Below, piece by piece: positions 5,971 to 19,759 of a stretch of DNA of 46,918 nt. The DNA lies in contig JAGAJK010000075.1 of the NCBI GenBank assembly GCA_017626145.1, positions 1 through 46,918 of the forward strand, read 5' to 3'. The notes under the pieces were generated by a model. It searched no databases. It was not told the DNA's origin and saw only the letters and a list, made by a program, of their open reading frames with translations. The position numbers and the translations under genes were made by a program. How positions within the stretch are numbered: the stretch's first letter is position 1; each line of letters begins with the position of its first letter. The stretch is from Clostridia bacterium (GTDB lineage Bacteria; Bacillota; Clostridia; RGIG6154).

Positions 5971-6564
5971 TTAATTTTTCTTTATCTGATATTCAAATAA
6001 ACCATGTTTGCTGCAATAAAAATAAATTTTACCGCCGTACATTTTTGGAAAACGCACAGCCGAGTTCTGTTCGGGATATAGTTTTATCGTAAGCACTCTG
6101 TCAATCCTTACATATGACACAAAGCTTATATAATGCGCCTTTGTCATTTGATGATTAAATTCAATATAACAATCATCCTCAATTTCAGAAATATTGATTG
6201 AGTGTTCGTCATCTGCTGAAACTACTTTTAAAGCTTCAAGCTGTTTTCCGCAACATATAACACGGCTGTTTCCTGTTCCTTGCATAAAGCTTCCACAGCA
6301 TGGACAGACATAAAATTTTGTTCTTTTCATATTATTAGCACTCTCAAGATTCTGCTCCAGGTCGCCTGACAGAATGGTTTTCTCACTCACGCCAAGAATA
6401 TCAGCCAACGCTGATACCGTTGACACATCAGGAAATCCGTGTCCCGTCTCCCATTTTGAAACTGTTTTGGGCACAATGCCCAACTTGTCGGCAACCTGTT
6501 TTTGGGTCATTCCTTTGGCTTTTCTTAAATCGCAAAGGAGTTTTCCGTTTTTACTTAAATCCAT
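5971..6564 (-). CDS. XRE-family regulator fused to a desulfoferrodoxin-like iron domain
   Basis: 197 residues. Residues 5-62 are an XRE helix-turn-helix (MTQKQVADKLGIVPKTVSKWE). Residues 85-110 carry the desulforedoxin-type centre: C87-P-C-C90 and the C104-C105 pair. Residues 118-190 match the superoxide reductase centre: H121, H138 (HQM), H144 (AHYI), C184 and H187 (CSKH), the Fe(His)4Cys ligand set. The conserved lysine before the first histidine (EKH in classical enzymes) is replaced (DEH), so catalysis may be weak. The ATG at 6564 follows GGAGGTTAAG. I infer an iron-based redox or superoxide sensor; targets could include the adjacent Fe-alcohol dehydrogenase. Confidence 0.85.
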   Translation of the reverse strand: MDLSKNGKLLCDLRKAKGMTQKQVADKLGIVPKTVSKWETGHGFPDVSTVSALADILGVSEKTILSGDLEQNLESANNMKRTKFYVCPCCGSFMQGTGNSRVICCGKQLEALKVVSADDEHSINISEIEDDCYIEFNHQMTKAHYISFVSYVRIDRVLTIKLYPEQNSAVRFPKMYGGKIYFYCSKHGLFEYQIKKN

Positions 6565-6644
6565 TTTTCTTAACCTCCGCAATTTAATAATAAAGCAATA
6601 ATATGAAATAGACAATCCACTATCCGTACATATTATATTAACTT

Positions 6645-7808
6645 TTAGAAACACTCTTTCAGCACACTCAGAATATCATCATGTGTCATATACTTATATC
6701 CGCCACCCTCATAGGTCGTTTCAGCAATTTTGGGTATCATATCTTCGGTTGCTCCAAGTTCACGAAGAGTCATTGGAATACCGAGTTCTTTTGCAAAGTT
6801 CTCTAAACAAGCGATACCCTCAAGTGCAATTTTGTCTTTGGTTTTGCCATCTGTTTTAACATTCCACACATTTTCTGCAAAGCGGACAAATTTATCAATT
6901 CCGTCTTTATAGATGTATCTGTAATACGGCATTGAAATCACCGCAAGTCCAAGACCGTGCGGACAGTCGGTGTATGCACCAAGCTGATGCTCAATATTAT
7001 GAACTTCCCAGTCCTGAGTTTTTGAAAGTCCTGTTACCGTGTTAAGTCCAAGGGTTGCACACCACATAATATTACTGCGTGCCTCGTAATCTTCGGGGTT
7101 CTTAACAGCCTTTCTGCTACTATTGATAATTGATTTCATAACCGCCTCAATCACATAGTCGGTCGTGTTATCATCATCGCCTGAAAAATACTGTTCCATA
7201 AGATGGCTCATTACATCAAACACACCGCTTACCATTTGTTTCTGTGGTACAGAATAAGTAAATTCAGGATTTAAAATTGAGAATTTAGGATACGCCTCAG
7301 GACCATACACTCTGCCTGTTTTTATAGTTACTTCTTCGTTGGTGATAACCGAGCCGCCATTCATTTCGGATGCTGTGCCCGTCATTGTGAGAATTGTGCC
7401 GACAGGAACAATTTCGTTGTCAACTTCTTCAAAATCAATCCAGTATCTTTGCCAAGGGTCGCCTTTTGCATAAGCGGAAACAGAGATTGCTTTTGCACAG
7501 TCGATAACCGAGCCTCCACCAACTGCTAAAATTAAATCAATCTTATTTTCACGAACAAGTCTTGCACCCTCGAGCACCTGACTATATGCAGGGTTAGGCT
7601 TGATTCCCGAAAGCTCTGTTATGTTTTTTCCGCAAGCCTGTAATATCTTAACAACCTCGTCATAAAGGCCGATTTTCTTGATTGAGTTTTTGCCGTATAA
7701 AAGCAGAATGTTCTTGCCGTAATTTGAAAGCTCTGCAGAGAGATTCTGCATTGCATCCTTGCCAAAATAAATTTTTGTGGGGTTATAATAGGTAAAATCG
7801 TGTAACAT
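6645..7808 (-). CDS. Iron-containing (butanol-type) alcohol dehydrogenase
   Basis: 387 residues, the usual length for group III alcohol dehydrogenases of the BdhA/YqhD type. The N-terminal NAD(P) half has the GGGS motif (AVGGGSVIDCAKAI). The C-terminal helical half carries the metal ligands: D in GVFDVMSH, H in MSHLMEQ and the two histidines in EHQLGAYTDCPHGLG. It reduces aldehydes to alcohols with NAD(P)H in the cytoplasm, a fermentation or aldehyde-detoxification role. Such iron enzymes are oxygen-sensitive, which suits the XRE/desulfoferrodoxin regulator 80 nt downstream on the same strand. The ATG follows GGAGG. Exact substrate unknown. Confidence 0.9.
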   Translation of the reverse strand: MLHDFTYYNPTKIYFGKDAMQNLSAELSNYGKNILLLYGKNSIKKIGLYDEVVKILQACGKNITELSGIKPNPAYSQVLEGARLVRENKIDLILAVGGGSVIDCAKAISVSAYAKGDPWQRYWIDFEEVDNEIVPVGTILTMTGTASEMNGGSVITNEEVTIKTGRVYGPEAYPKFSILNPEFTYSVPQKQMVSGVFDVMSHLMEQYFSGDDDNTTDYVIEAVMKSIINSSRKAVKNPEDYEARSNIMWCATLGLNTVTGLSKTQDWEVHNIEHQLGAYTDCPHGLGLAVISMPYYRYIYKDGIDKFVRFAENVWNVKTDGKTKDKIALEGIACLENFAKELGIPMTLRELGATEDMIPKIAETTYEGGGYKYMTHDDILSVLKECF

Positions 7809-8225: not shown

Positions 8226-8609
8226 CTACCTCCGCAATTCCAATATTTTCTCTTTTATCTTATTCGCTGTTTTGATAAATTCTTCATCGCTTTTGCCTGT
8301 GGGATCGTCAAGACCCCAATCCGAGCGTTTTTTGCATGGTATATTGGGACAATGAACATTGCATCCCATTGTGATAACAATATCAGGTTCGGGAATATCA
8401 GAAATCAGCTTTGAATACTGACTCTTCATATCAATACCGAAATGCTCTTTCATAATCCGCACGGCATCTTTATTTATCTCGGGCTTTGTTTCTGTTCCTG
8501 CAGAATAGCAATCGTATTTGTCTGAAAGATACACTTTTCCAAAGGCTTCTGCCATTTGACTTCGACAGGAATTATGTACGCAAATAAATGCTATTTTAGT
8601 TTTTGACAT
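8226..8609 (-). CDS. arsC: Arsenate reductase, low-molecular-weight phosphatase/thioredoxin-coupled type
   Basis: 127 residues. The N-terminal P-loop is C10-VHNSC-R16 (CX5R), and ITMGCNVHCPNIPC supplies the later redox cysteines; DPTG near the end matches the general-acid loop. It reduces arsenate to arsenite using its cysteine relay and thioredoxin. The start is the ATG at 8609; an in-frame TTG upstream is less likely. It overlaps the end of the DUF5714 gene by 14 nt. No arsenite pump (ArsB/Acr3) or ArsR regulator is in the window, so arsenite export would need a gene elsewhere or the MATE pump of this operon. Confidence 0.9.
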   Translation of the reverse strand: MSKTKIAFICVHNSCRSQMAEAFGKVYLSDKYDCYSAGTETKPEINKDAVRIMKEHFGIDMKSQYSKLISDIPEPDIVITMGCNVHCPNIPCKKRSDWGLDDPTGKSDEEFIKTANKIKEKILELRR

Positions 8610-9285
8610 GGAAAGGACACCTTTCTTCAATACATTGATTATTTAGCTTTGAGCGTGAACATTTGATTTTATCAAGTTCCATATGTATGCCAAGGTTTTC
8701 TGCAGTAAACTTGACCGCCTCACGAATTGCAAGATACGAATCTCTTTTACAGCAACGAGGTCCGCCATTTTTACCGATTGCAGATAGAGAAAGTCCTGTC
8801 ATCTGATTAGAAAGACCCCAAGCTTTGCTTGCAAGAGGTGTTGACTTAGTTACAATCGACATATACATTCCTGTGCTGATACCTGCACCGCATGCACCCC
8901 AAAATCCGCATGCTCCGCCGGGAACTTGCTTTCCCCTTGCATACATTTCGGATAGCACAGTCGGCAAGTCAATATATCCGCCTGCGTTTTTATACGCAGT
9001 AAGAAGTGATGCTCCTACCATAACATGATGCTCGGGGCCGTGCATATGGCAAAAGTCCATTGACATCATCTTTTCTAAAATCTCAATTGGATTTTTGGAC
9101 TTTTCATTTAAAGCTAACGCTATAATTTCGTCCATTCCGTTTGTGTGGCACTCACTGCAGACATAGTGCCCGTTTACGCATCTTGTTTTACTGTTCTCTT
9201 TCTTGTGGCAAATCACACATTCCATCATTGTATCCGTTTCCAGATACTCAAGCGGTGCTTTGCAAATTAAACATTCTTCACTCAT
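8596..9285 (-). CDS. DUF5714 cysteine-rich protein
   Basis: 229 residues, rich in cysteines. The N-terminus has two zinc-finger-like knuckles (CLICKAPL, CVICHKKE) and CSECH. The core has the family signature MHGPEHHVMVGASLLTAY, then GGACGFWGACGAG and GGPRCCKRDSY, and it ends in RCPFHVKN. Members of DUF5714 are sometimes loosely labelled SAM-dependent methyltransferases, but no SAM motif is visible. The many Cys/His pairs suggest metal or Fe-S binding. It overlaps the gene before it by 4 nt and ArsC after it by 14 nt, so translation is coupled. Function unknown. Confidence 0.8.
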   Translation of the reverse strand: MSEECLICKAPLEYLETDTMMECVICHKKENSKTRCVNGHYVCSECHTNGMDEIIALALNEKSKNPIEILEKMMSMDFCHMHGPEHHVMVGASLLTAYKNAGGYIDLPTVLSEMYARGKQVPGGACGFWGACGAGISTGMYMSIVTKSTPLASKAWGLSNQMTGLSLSAIGKNGGPRCCKRDSYLAIREAVKFTAENLGIHMELDKIKCSRSKLNNQCIEERCPFHVKN

Positions 9286-9897: not shown

Positions 9898-10356
9898 TTA
9901 TTCTTCTACCTCATATGGCCAATCAATAATTCCGCCAAATTCTTTTACATTGGTGTAACCAAGTTTTGCAAGACTTTCGGCTGCGATTTTACTTCGTCTG
10001 CCACTGCGGCAATATACAAGAATTAACTTGTCCTTATCGGGTATAATTTCTTCTGCTTTATTTTCAATTTCGGTATATGGAATTAAGATTGCTCCTGGGA
10101 TGTGTCCACTATCGAATTCATCCTGTTCTCTTGTGTCTAAAATGATATGTTCTTCGCCTGAGTCCATTATTTTTTTGGCATTCTCTGCCGTAATTTGTTC
10201 GTACATTGCTTTTTCTCCTTTTTCTGCGACTATTATGGATGTCGGTCCGTCTGCACCGCCGATGATTCCAATACTGCTATCATTTCCGCAAGCGGTAAGC
10301 AGTATACAAAGTGAGATTGATATAGTAAACAATAAATTTCTCATAACTGATACCAT
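9898..10356 (-). CDS. Rhodanese-domain lipoprotein with a GGADGPTSI segment
   Basis: 152 residues. A signal peptide ends in the lipobox LTAC, so the mature protein is probably lipid-anchored outside the membrane. Directly after it comes IGIIGGADGPTSIIV, a motif known from the beta subunit of Na+-pumping decarboxylases and seen as a short segment behind signal peptides in Clostridia. Residues ~50-150 form a rhodanese domain with active-site loop YCRSGRRS (catalytic Cys), which handles sulfane sulfur. The ATG at 10356 overlaps the stop of the NifX-like gene (TAATG); M5 is an alternative start. It resembles the rhodanese domain at the end of the CoA-disulfide reductase in this operon. Confidence 0.85.
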   Translation of the reverse strand: MVSVMRNLLFTISISLCILLTACGNDSSIGIIGGADGPTSIIVAEKGEKAMYEQITAENAKKIMDSGEEHIILDTREQDEFDSGHIPGAILIPYTEIENKAEEIIPDKDKLILVYCRSGRRSKIAAESLAKLGYTNVKEFGGIIDWPYEVEE

Positions 10357-10783: not shown

Positions 10784-11146
10784 TTATTTTTTTGGCTGAT
10801 AAAGCCCTACTGTTTCTTTATTTCTATATTCGTGCCTTTCGTAATAGCCGATGAGTGTTCCGTCATCATCACGAAGAGCGACCATATACACATCCTTGTT
10901 TTCCTCGTCATTGCGATAGGTATATATGATGTTATTATCCTTGCTTTCGCGAAACCACGCAACCACCTTGTCTATCATTTCATTAGCTTTTGGCGGATGG
11001 CAGTCTTTAATACTTCTGCCTGTCAAGTCTTTGTGATAACGCTTTATGGCACACGGATTCATATATACAATAATATCATCTATATCGCAAACAACCACAG
11101 GGGCTGTGTCCTGGTCTAATACGCTTTTTAATAATTTATTTAACAT
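10784..11146 (-). CDS. Small PAS-domain protein
   Basis: 120 residues, a lone PAS sensor domain (VLDQDTAPVVVCDIDDIIVYMNPCAI...GRSIKDCHPP) with no output domain. The ATG at 11146 follows GGAGAAATAG and overlaps the end of the CoA-disulfide reductase gene; in-frame codons upstream lie inside that gene. PAS domains bind small ligands, heme or flavin; CHPP could be a cofactor site, which is inference. A near-identical C-terminal fragment of this gene lies at 18873-19052, showing that a second copy existed. Confidence 0.8.
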   Translation of the reverse strand: MLNKLLKSVLDQDTAPVVVCDIDDIIVYMNPCAIKRYHKDLTGRSIKDCHPPKANEMIDKVVAWFRESKDNNIIYTYRNDEENKDVYMVALRDDDGTLIGYYERHEYRNKETVGLYQPKK

Positions 11147-11147
11147 T

Positions 11148-12824
11148 CTATTTCTCCATTCCGCAGTCATATGCATTTTTTGATACAGCCTCATCATAGT
11201 ACATCGTGCCATAAAGTCTGTATCCGCCTGCAAAATTGTAGGCATCGAATCCGTTTTGCATAAGTATTCTTGTCGCAAGATAGCTCCTTAAACCGCTCTG
11301 GCACATCACATATACAGGTTTTGATTTATCGAGTTCTGTAAGTCTTTCACGCAGTTCATCAACGGGGATATTGATAAAGCCCTCTGCATGACCGCGCATA
11401 TATTCGTAGACGGTTCTTGTATCTAAAAGCGTGATATCATCTCTTTTTTGAAGAAGAGGAATATCCTCATAATAGAACTGCCCTACAATACCGTTTTTTA
11501 TATTTTCAATGATAAAGCCTGCCATATTCACAGGGTCTTTTGCCGAAGAATATGGCGGTGCATAGGAAAGCTCAAGGTCTTTTAGCTTGTCCGCTGTAAG
11601 TCCTGCAAAAATTGCAGTGGCAATTACATCAATTCTTTTTTCAACACCCTCATAACCTACCGCTTGTGCGCCGAGGATTTTATATGTTTCCTTTTCAAAT
11701 ATAACCTTTAAGGTCATAACGGCAGCACCAGGATAGTATCCTGCGTGAGAAAGGGGCGAAAGAATGACTTTTTCGTAAGCGATATTGCTTAATTTAAGCT
11801 GAGTTTCAGTCATTCCTGTTGATGCTACTGTCATATCAAATAGTTTAATAACCGATGCGCCTTGCGTGCCTTTATAAGTGCTGTTAATCCCGCAAATATT
11901 GTCTGCCGCAATTCGCCCCTGCTTATTGGCAGGGCCTGCTAATGTTATAACTGCCTTATCCTTTGAAATAATGTTTTCCACCTCGACCGCATCACCGACT
12001 GCATAAATGTCATCGTCCGAGGTTTGCATATTGTCAGAAACTGCAATTGCCCCCTTTACGCCCAATGCGAGTCCCGCATCCTTTGCAAGCGTGTTTTCAG
12101 GCAAAACGCCGACAGATACAATGACCATATCAGCAGGTATCTCCTTACAATCGGTAATGACAATGTTCTTCTCAATACTTTTTACATTGGCATTTAAAAG
12201 AATATTGATGCCCTTTGACCTTAAATTTGTGTGAACAAATGATGCAATGTCACTATCTACTGTGTTTAAAAGGTGGTCGCCTTTTTGGATGACAGTAACA
12301 TCTATTCCTCGATTTTTAAGATTTTCCGCCATCTCAAGCCCTATAAAACCACCGCCGATGATAACTGCCGTCTTAATCGAATTGTTGTCTGTAAACTCAC
12401 GGATTTTAAGCGTATCTTCTACTGTGCGCAGTGTGAAAATGTTACTGCAATCACCAATGCAAAAATCAGGCATAACAGGCTTTGCACCGGGAGATAAAAT
12501 GAGTTTGTCATAGCTTTCTTCAAACACTTTTCCGCTTATTTTATCCAAAACCGTAACAGTTTTTCTTTCACGATTTATTTTAGTTACCTCGTGGAGAGTT
12601 CTTACATCAATTTTGAATCTCGACCAAAATCCTTCGGGAGTCTGTAAAAACAAATCTTCTTTGTCAGAGATTTCTCCTCCGATATAGTAAGGGAGTCCGC
12701 AATTTGCATAGGAAACATATCCGCTTCGCTCAAAAATGATTATCTCCGAATTTTCATCAAGTCTTCTGATTCTTGCTGCAGCCGTAGCACCGCCTGCAAC
12801 TCCTCCAACAATAACTATCTTCAT
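11148..12824 (-). CDS. CoA-disulfide reductase / persulfide reductase with C-terminal rhodanese domain
   Basis: 558 residues. The N-terminal FAD-binding motif is GGVAGGATAAARIRRL, the single catalytic cysteine is C42 in YANCGLPYYIGG, and a second dinucleotide motif IIGGGFIGLEMAENL binds NAD(P)H. After the dimerisation domain, residues ~465-550 form a rhodanese domain with loop YVMCQSGLRS. CoADR-rhodanese fusions reduce CoA disulfide or polysulfide/persulfide with NAD(P)H (established for characterised members). The ATG follows GGAGGTG and begins 2 nt after the MATE stop. With the rhodanese lipoprotein it indicates sulfane-sulfur metabolism in this operon. Confidence 0.9.
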   Translation of the reverse strand: MKIVIVGGVAGGATAAARIRRLDENSEIIIFERSGYVSYANCGLPYYIGGEISDKEDLFLQTPEGFWSRFKIDVRTLHEVTKINRERKTVTVLDKISGKVFEESYDKLILSPGAKPVMPDFCIGDCSNIFTLRTVEDTLKIREFTDNNSIKTAVIIGGGFIGLEMAENLKNRGIDVTVIQKGDHLLNTVDSDIASFVHTNLRSKGINILLNANVKSIEKNIVITDCKEIPADMVIVSVGVLPENTLAKDAGLALGVKGAIAVSDNMQTSDDDIYAVGDAVEVENIISKDKAVITLAGPANKQGRIAADNICGINSTYKGTQGASVIKLFDMTVASTGMTETQLKLSNIAYEKVILSPLSHAGYYPGAAVMTLKVIFEKETYKILGAQAVGYEGVEKRIDVIATAIFAGLTADKLKDLELSYAPPYSSAKDPVNMAGFIIENIKNGIVGQFYYEDIPLLQKRDDITLLDTRTVYEYMRGHAEGFINIPVDELRERLTELDKSKPVYVMCQSGLRSYLATRILMQNGFDAYNFAGGYRLYGTMYYDEAVSKNAYDCGMEK

Positions 12825-18872: not shown

Positions 18873-19052
18873 TTATTCCTTTGGCTGATATACCGTTTCT
18901 TTGTTTCTATATTCGTGCTTTTCGTAATAGCCGATTAAAGTACCGTCATCATCACGAAGAGCAACCATATACACATCCTTATTTTCCTCGTCATTACGGT
19001 AAGTATACATAATATTATTTTTCTTGCTCTCTTTAAACCATAAAACTACTTT
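18873..19052 (-). pseudogene. C-terminal fragment of a PAS protein, duplicate of the gene at 10784-11146
   Basis: The frame reads KVVLWFKESKKNNIMYTYRN, DEENKDVYMVALRDDDGTLI and ends KETVYQPKE; only a few residues differ from the intact copy over ~60. The first half of the PAS gene is absent: at about 19050-19053 the sequence switches into the end of the channel pseudogene in another frame. It is transcribed, if at all, from that side. Confidence 0.8.
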
Positions 19053-19759
19053 ATATTTCCAAAACTCATTGTTGCTTCTTTGAAGCTTTTTCCCGTTAAT
19101 TCCGGAACTTTCTCAAAATACAGTTCGTTACCTGTAAAATTAAACAATTCAGTTAAAACCTGCGACAAGCCATGCTGACGGCAGGTGTTGGAAATAATTC
19201 TTGCTATAGCATCTTTGGAATAAATTATTGCGGCACGCCCCTCTCCCGCAATATTTGCTGCCTCAATATACTGATTGTTCTGTAATGAAACGATAAATCG
19301 CAAATCAGAATTTGTAAGATCTTTATTTTTCACATAAGCAGCCAATGCCAATAAAACCTTTACAGTCTCTGCATCATTATGCATATTAACAATCACGGAT
19401 TTACAGGTTTCAACAGAGCAACGCTCCAATGCATAAGCCTCATGTAAATTACCGCTTCTGCAAATAATCCTCGTAGTCTTATTATCTGTGATGTGGGAAG
19501 AAATTGCATCCTCCATTTTTTCCTTTGGTTGCTCTCCCAATACTACAATACACGCATTTTTCTTATTGGAATTTGCTTCTATAAGTTAGTTGATAATTGC
19601 ATATATGTTATTATCAAAACCAATGATAACTGTATGATTATCCTCTTGAACAACAGAAGTACCTTTACGCAAATTTCCAAGCTTATCCTCCACACCTGTT
19701 GCGATGACACCAATCAATACACTTGTAAGAAATAAGCCACAAAGTGCAGCAAGGAACAT
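19046..19759 (-). pseudogene. Decayed CASTOR/POLLUX (DMI1)-like ion channel, RCK-type regulatory part
   Basis: A minus-strand frame begins in the last membrane helix (MFLAALCGLFLTSVLIGVIA, TGVEDKLGNLRKG), runs into the nucleotide-binding fold (HTVIIGFDNNIYAIIN), meets a TAA at 19586-19588 where the family continues with LIEAN, and goes on through TRIICRSGNLHEAYALERC and FIVSLQNNQYIEAANIAGE to MSFGN, where it is cut at 19053. The N-terminal membrane part and the C-terminal half are missing and there is an internal stop, so the gene is dead. Family assignment is by recall. Confidence 0.65.

Follow-up and report, generated by a model that had tools for sequence, protein, structure and literature searches.

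The HTH-Dx-SOR gene and its surroundings

The window (the whole stretch of DNA analysed, 46,918 nucleotides of contig JAGAJK010000075.1 from the Clostridia bacterium assembly GCA_017626145.1, a gut anaerobe) carries on its reverse strand a gene for a protein in which an XRE-type DNA-binding (HTH) domain is followed by a desulforedoxin-like (Dx) part and a superoxide reductase (SOR) centre II domain (Table 1). The start codon at 6564 matches the start in aligned relatives; a GTG at 6654 is an unlikely start, overlapping the gene of an upstream alcohol dehydrogenase (ADH).

Table 1. Positions of the HTH-Dx-SOR gene, its domains, its promoter elements and neighboring genes in the window
Feature	Position	Strand	Basis or remark
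HTH-Dx-SOR gene, 197 aa	5971..6564	-	ORF translation; ATG at 6564
SOR centre II domain, aa 111-197, H121/H138/H144/C184/H187	5974..6234	-	PDB matches, alignment, fold
Desulforedoxin-like (Dx) part, aa 81-109, C87/C90/C104/C105	6238..6324	-	PDB matches, alignment, fold
XRE/HTH_3 DNA-binding domain, aa 13-61	6382..6528	-	Pfam PF01381; fold
Predicted -10 TATTAT, 17-nt spacer	6587..6592	-	Promoter analysis
Predicted -35 TTGTCT, abuts operator	6610..6615	-	Promoter analysis
Operator-like element AATATGTACGGATAGTGGATTGTCTA	6609..6634	-	Conserved in family promoters; sole exact match in genome
Fe-ADH family alcohol dehydrogenase, upstream neighbor	6645..7808	-	Pfam PF00465/PF25137
Low-Mr phosphatase/arsenate-reductase-like protein	8226..8630	-	PF01451; also beside the gene in L008, L019
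DUF5714 protein	8596..9285	-	PF18978; recurrent neighbor in L008
Rhodanese-domain protein	9898..10356	-	PF00581; recurrent neighbor in L019, L196
PAS-domain protein	10784..11278	-	Near the HTH-Dx-SOR gene in several genomes
CoA-disulfide-reductase-like flavoprotein with rhodanese domain	11148..12824	-	Also beside the gene in L019

Residues 13-61 match the Pfam model HTH_3 (PF01381) with 52 bits, above its cut-off of 23, bearing out the XRE domain that a preliminary description of this DNA had placed ahead of an iron domain, and a fold search likened the N-terminal domain to the P22 c2 repressor, C.AhdI and SinR. Residues 79-193 are desulfoferrodoxin-like, matching TIGR00320 with an E value of 8e-9 and 35.7 bits (under the curated cut-off of 146.9) and PF01880 with an E value of 0.014 and 16.4 bits (under the curated cut-off of 22.2), and the desulfoferrodoxins 2ji2, 2ji1, 1vzg and 1dfx in the PDB were matched by sequence with E values of 3e-5 to 1e-3. 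An AlphaFold2 model built on a 27-row alignment (mean pLDDT 88) has 1y07 as its best structural match (Z 13.9, rmsd 2.2 Å, 114 residues), followed by 1dfx and 2ji1 (Z 12.8-12.9, ~115 residues each), and Foldseek gave E values of about 1e-8 against solved SORs. In the comparison with desulfoferrodoxin that the preliminary description had proposed as a check, the model superposes on solved SORs with Z scores of 12.8-13.9.

The four Dx cysteines (C87, C90, C104 and C105, spaced CX2C-X13-CC) and the five centre II ligands (H121, H138, H144, C184 and H187) lie at exactly the residues named in the preliminary description, as judged from the translation and the alignment, and the latter five align with centre II of the solved SORs. 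In 27 aligned relatives C87, C90, C104, C105, H121, H138 and C184 never vary and H144 and H187 hardly do, a degree of conservation which argues that the ligand set is not due to chance. The lysine that assists superoxide binding had been reported missing, and indeed the residue preceding H121, at the position of K48 of D. baarsii, is E120; D119 takes the position equivalent to E47. Besides this protein, the host genome encodes a canonical SOR that has the EKH motif (L002; G000:C95).

The preliminary description had noted that the gene is next to an oxygen-sensitive Fe-ADH. The closest NCBIfam model for this neighbor is PRK15138 (E. coli YqhD), so that its oxygen sensitivity is at best presumed. 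A gene of this family does adjoin the HTH-Dx-SOR gene, but as evidence the adjacency is weak: the HTH-Dx-SOR gene has its own promoter in the 80-bp gap between the two, and the Fe-ADH gene is not preceded by the operator described below and lies near an HTH-Dx-SOR gene at only one other inspected locus (L231, ~3 kb off). It is probably a separate transcription unit and its position mostly incidental; with proximity not conserved and the operator absent in front of it, we rejected it as a partner.

The HTH-Dx-SOR gene is the last of a same-strand run of genes for the CoA-disulfide-reductase/rhodanese protein, the PAS protein, a NifX-type protein, the rhodanese protein, an unknown protein, the DUF5714 protein, the low-Mr phosphatase, a short unknown protein and Fe-ADH. 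Members of this set again adjoin the gene, in other orders, at three loci (L019, L196 and L008). Of the 10 genomes that contain both genes, 4 have the PAS gene less than 10 kb from the HTH-Dx-SOR gene (probability by chance about 1e-6, uncorrected for the choice of gene). The link to the PAS/rhodanese/low-Mr phosphatase/DUF5714 set is real but loose, and the operator precedes none of these neighbors in the window. A family-wide conserved operon was sought and rejected, the few recurrent neighbors being this cluster, a CatA-like gene and the gene of a ~116-residue protein.

Two of the neighbors have features of their own. In the rhodanese protein the N-terminus resembles that of a lipoprotein, and after it comes a short motif, GGADGPTSIIV, with a match in the oxaloacetate decarboxylase beta subunit. 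Positions 18879-19055 of the reverse strand encode a 61-residue copy, 90% identical to the C-terminal part of the PAS protein, which appears to be a truncated duplicate.

Lysine and metal ligands across the family

SOR-type matches were found in 222 of 391 genomes sampled across Clostridia, and about 76 of the 391 (about a fifth), as counted by the score and frame length of these matches, carry the HTH-fused type; the gene was absent from six genomes of the window's own order. Close relatives of the window protein, with 40-90% identity, come from metagenome assemblies of gut Clostridia. In a tree of the SOR domain, all fused-type rows fall in a single branch (97 rows, SH-aLRT 100), and nearest to it stands a small set of stand-alone SORs in which the lysine is retained. 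Given this topology, the simplest reading would be that the fusion arose once and that the lysine was lost afterwards.

Ligands and lysine were counted over 94 distinct fused sequences and 27 stand-alone SORs. Lys48 is kept in 8 of the 94 fused proteins, as against all 27 of the stand-alone enzymes. The four Dx cysteines are complete in 84 of the 94, and most proteins with an incomplete set have a cysteine-to-histidine change at C105 (Cys-to-His changes in the Dx site occur in 8 proteins). All five centre II ligands are present in 59, and the remaining 35 have lost at least one. The clade of the window (18 tree rows) shows no loss of a centre II ligand.

Several members of the tree have further peculiarities. 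The stand-alone SORs L137-L142, the nearest relatives of the fused clade, keep the EKH motif intact, and their C-terminal half is of the YPEQ/FPEQ type. A subgroup of seven fused proteins (L103, L107, L115, L116, L159, L167 and L188) combines a CCCH Dx site with replacement of H187 by aspartate, a parallel change at both metal sites.

Within the window's clade, six genes (L009, L010 and L013-L016) encode the XRE domain, the Dx-SOR part and a C-terminal SAM-dependent methyltransferase (LCM/TIGR00027) in one frame, and these triple-fusion genes, e.g. L013:4001-5446, have a promoter with the same operator. The AlphaFold2 model of this methyltransferase is moderate.

An operator-like element at the promoter and its distribution

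The promoters of the family share an element with the consensus TCTACGnAGCGTnGaTTG, which is partly palindromic, is centred on the dyad CTACG-N3-CGTAG and ends in the TTG of the -35 hexamer. Using a position matrix refined over the family, with a score threshold that is reached by 0.3% of shuffled sequences, the operator was found to abut the -35 hexamer in 80 of 96 own promoters at a nearly fixed distance (null 0.3%). A -10 hexamer with at least 4 of 6 matches is present in 79 of these 80 promoters, and the spacer is 17 nt long in 66. At 10 of the 16 remaining loci the operator is found at a greater distance from the gene, in most cases ahead of the gene that opens an apparent operon; of the other six, one (L026) is a start-site error and five are without operator.

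In the window the element sits in the 80-bp gap between the stop of the ADH gene (6645) and the start of the HTH-Dx-SOR gene (6564). The form of the operator in the window's clade is GTACGGATAGTGG, and a GTACGGATAGTGGATTG-like sequence ~60 nt ahead of the start codon is common to 17 genes of this clade, the upstream neighbors of which are mostly unrelated. The dyad of the window operator is poor (2 of 5 arm pairs, judged by eye), and the same holds in close relatives that share the sequence.

The operator is closely tied to this gene. It was detected in none of 27 promoters of stand-alone SORs, that of the host's own SOR included, and regulation of the canonical SOR was accordingly rejected. 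Among 680 other upstream regions it occurs in 10, nine of which are the upstream cases described above. It is normally unique in a genome, and the genome of the window has no exact match beyond its own site.

This distribution bears on two alternatives in which the HTH domain would not read the site. In one, a different regulator would bind the promoter element and control all HTH-Dx-SOR genes. Such an arrangement would fit the behavior of the HTH residues, whose covariation with operator bases is strong at clade level and, since it stems from about two independent events, loses significance once descent is corrected for. However, near-confinement of the site to the transcription unit of the gene and its usual uniqueness per genome are the pattern of autoregulation, and we regard a foreign regulator as very improbable. 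In the other, the HTH domain would be a relic without DNA binding, like that of the Fe(II) epoxidase HppE; this enzyme and related XRE-iron enzymes rank high in the fold search. An operator that accompanies the gene across a bacterial class and is missing from the promoters of SORs lacking an HTH domain leaves this idea with hardly any credibility.

Outside the own promoter, the operator points to a small number of further candidates. It precedes the gene of the ~116-residue protein (no Pfam match) upstream of the HTH-Dx-SOR gene at L145, L146, L154, L171, L173, L175, L179 and L155, making this protein a possible partner. At L154, L175 and L179 the operator-bearing upstream gene is ~2.5 kb from the HTH-Dx-SOR gene, and because of this distance it may be a separate target. 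A CatA-like acetyltransferase gene, the product of which matches the Pfam CAT model but falls under the CatA cut-off, lies downstream of the HTH-Dx-SOR gene at six loci. A close relative of this protein (at least 47% identity) occurs in seven carrier genomes, encoded within the HTH-Dx-SOR operon in four and elsewhere in three, and all three unlinked genes (L300, L301 and L302, in G226, G344 and G149) carry the operator in their promoter with scores of 23-32; the promoters of distant CatA homologs in the same genomes are without it. The CatA-like acetyltransferase gene is, by this comparison, a candidate trans target of the HTH-Dx-SOR protein, as is an amide-hydrolase-like gene (L291 in G124), named by reading its sequence. 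For the window's genome a wider regulon was rejected, as the near matches inspected are all intragenic except for one weak intergenic match, and a second operator pattern gave 34 matches against 18 with a reversed control; since no second target is evident there, a wider redox regulon is not seen in that genome.

An autoregulated enzyme would explain some of these observations. Its Dx-SOR part would still be a superoxide reductase, if a slower one, or another scavenger, and the HTH domain would limit its own expression, as in PutA and BirA. SOR variants without Lys48 are known to react with superoxide still, more slowly; the window's clade has kept all ligands; in the genome of the window no target is clear other than the own promoter; and about 32 of the 76 carrier genomes show no other SOR, so that the fused protein could be the only SOR there. 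Nevertheless, Lys48 is gone from 86 and centre II damaged in 35 of the 94 fused proteins, the host of the window has a canonical SOR, and unlinked CatA-like genes have the operator in front of them as well. On balance, a retained enzymatic role, though conceivable for the window protein, seems to us rather improbable.

Most fused proteins with a broken centre II still have the operator; L155 in G226, for instance, has lost an intact centre II yet retains both the operator and the CatA-like target. Such persistence, together with the tolerance of the Dx site for Cys-to-His changes in eight proteins, would also be expected if the Dx-SOR fold served not as a redox sensor but as a structural, probably zinc-bearing scaffold or as a pocket for a small, e.g. 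drug-like, molecule, and the partners, a CAT-family acetyltransferase and a TIGR00027 SAM-dependent methyltransferase, suit the latter. The 18 rows of the window's clade without any loss of a centre II ligand are hard to explain for a mere scaffold, and we hold this reading to be unlikely, though deserving of some weight.

A putative metalloregulator on the desulfoferrodoxin fold

We consider it probable that the window protein is a one-component, autoregulating transcription factor of the HTH-Dx-SOR class whose metal sites would serve as a sensor of redox state or metal loss. Comparative sequence analysis supports the architecture and fold, the single clade, the loss of Lys48, and the operator with its restriction to the transcription unit of this gene and, in some genomes, a CatA-like target. 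The XRE domain would read the partly palindromic CTACG-N3-CGTAG operator, and as this site abuts the -35 hexamer of the gene's own sigma-A-type promoter, the protein would control its own transcription unit and very probably regulates its own production. It would most likely act as a repressor covering the -35 hexamer; repression appears more likely than activation because the TTG of the hexamer is conserved and adjacent to the site.

The C-terminal metal domain with its desulfoferrodoxin fold may go back to a superoxide reductase, through a single recruitment in Clostridia, and the loss of Lys48 would then have freed it from catalysis. Should the metal sites (the Cys4 Dx site throughout the family and, for the window's clade, the His4-Cys iron as well) change in occupancy or become oxidized, a dimer would be altered such that the operator is released or engaged under redox stress or metal loss. 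Direct binding by this protein, dimerization, repression rather than activation, iron binding, a response to redox state and the kind of signal are what we infer. Of the two sites, Dx is more likely to be the constant part, sensory or structural, since relatives whose centre II is broken apparently remain regulated, and centre II would be an added feature of the window's clade. Outside that clade a sensing role for the centre II iron is doubtful, given that the site is broken in 35 of 94 relatives, most of which still carry the operator.

The preliminary description had proposed an iron-based redox sensor acting on DNA rather than an enzyme. Action on DNA is well supported, owing to an operator-like site in the own promoter across Clostridia and to the loss of Lys48 in nearly the whole clade. 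The sensor half of that proposal is less secure: redox sensing by the complete iron site we infer, its plausibility coming from the fold and ligands, and the protein perhaps responds to redox stress.

The domain architecture itself is already known. SORGOdb lists HTH-Dx-SOR as a class of 19 proteins with an N-terminal HTH domain, a desulforedoxin centre and SOR centre II (Lucchetti-Miganeh et al. 2011, PMC3116461), the same order as in the window protein; the main text of that article carries no comment on function, operator or Lys48 for the class, and the Dx cysteine spacing it quotes, CXXC-X15-CC, differs from the X13 of the window protein (PMC3116461). Our literature search found no functional study of HTH-Dx-SOR fusions. 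Apparently new are the disappearance of Lys48 across the family, the decay of centre II, the fusion with a methyltransferase, and both the operator and the CatA-like candidate target.

With the desulfoferrodoxins or 2Fe-SORs (D. baarsii 2ji1, D. desulfuricans 1dfx; TIGR00320) the window protein has the fold and nine ligands in common, and it differs from them in the fused HTH domain, the lack of Lys48, D119 in place of E47, and a score of 35.7 rather than 146.9 bits. Its best fold match, the Treponema pallidum SOR (1y07, Z 13.9), is without an HTH domain. The XRE one-component repressors P22 c2, SinR and C.AhdI are alike in the N-terminal fold and in having a near-palindromic operator beside their own promoter, whereas the sensor domain of the window protein has the desulfoferrodoxin fold. 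HppE, the fosfomycin epoxidase, likewise joins an XRE-type domain to a mononuclear Fe(II) domain but is a cupin and a working enzyme, for which we know of no operator system.

To our knowledge, few superoxide or oxygen sensors of strict anaerobes are well understood. Tentatively, and with somewhat less conviction than we attach to autoregulation by a metal-sensing factor, the family may represent the first metalloregulator built on the desulfoferrodoxin fold: a SOR turned transcription factor by XRE fusion and lysine loss that would sense superoxide, O2, NO or redox-active compounds through iron. Its operator would be class-wide in Clostridia and its regulon small, made up of its own gene, that of a CatA-like acetyltransferase and sometimes a fused SAM methyltransferase. 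A class that has stood in a database since 2011 is now one clade with lysine loss, a defined operator and a candidate target gene, so that what was an annotation curiosity becomes a testable system and would offer a clear case of an enzyme fold turned regulator.
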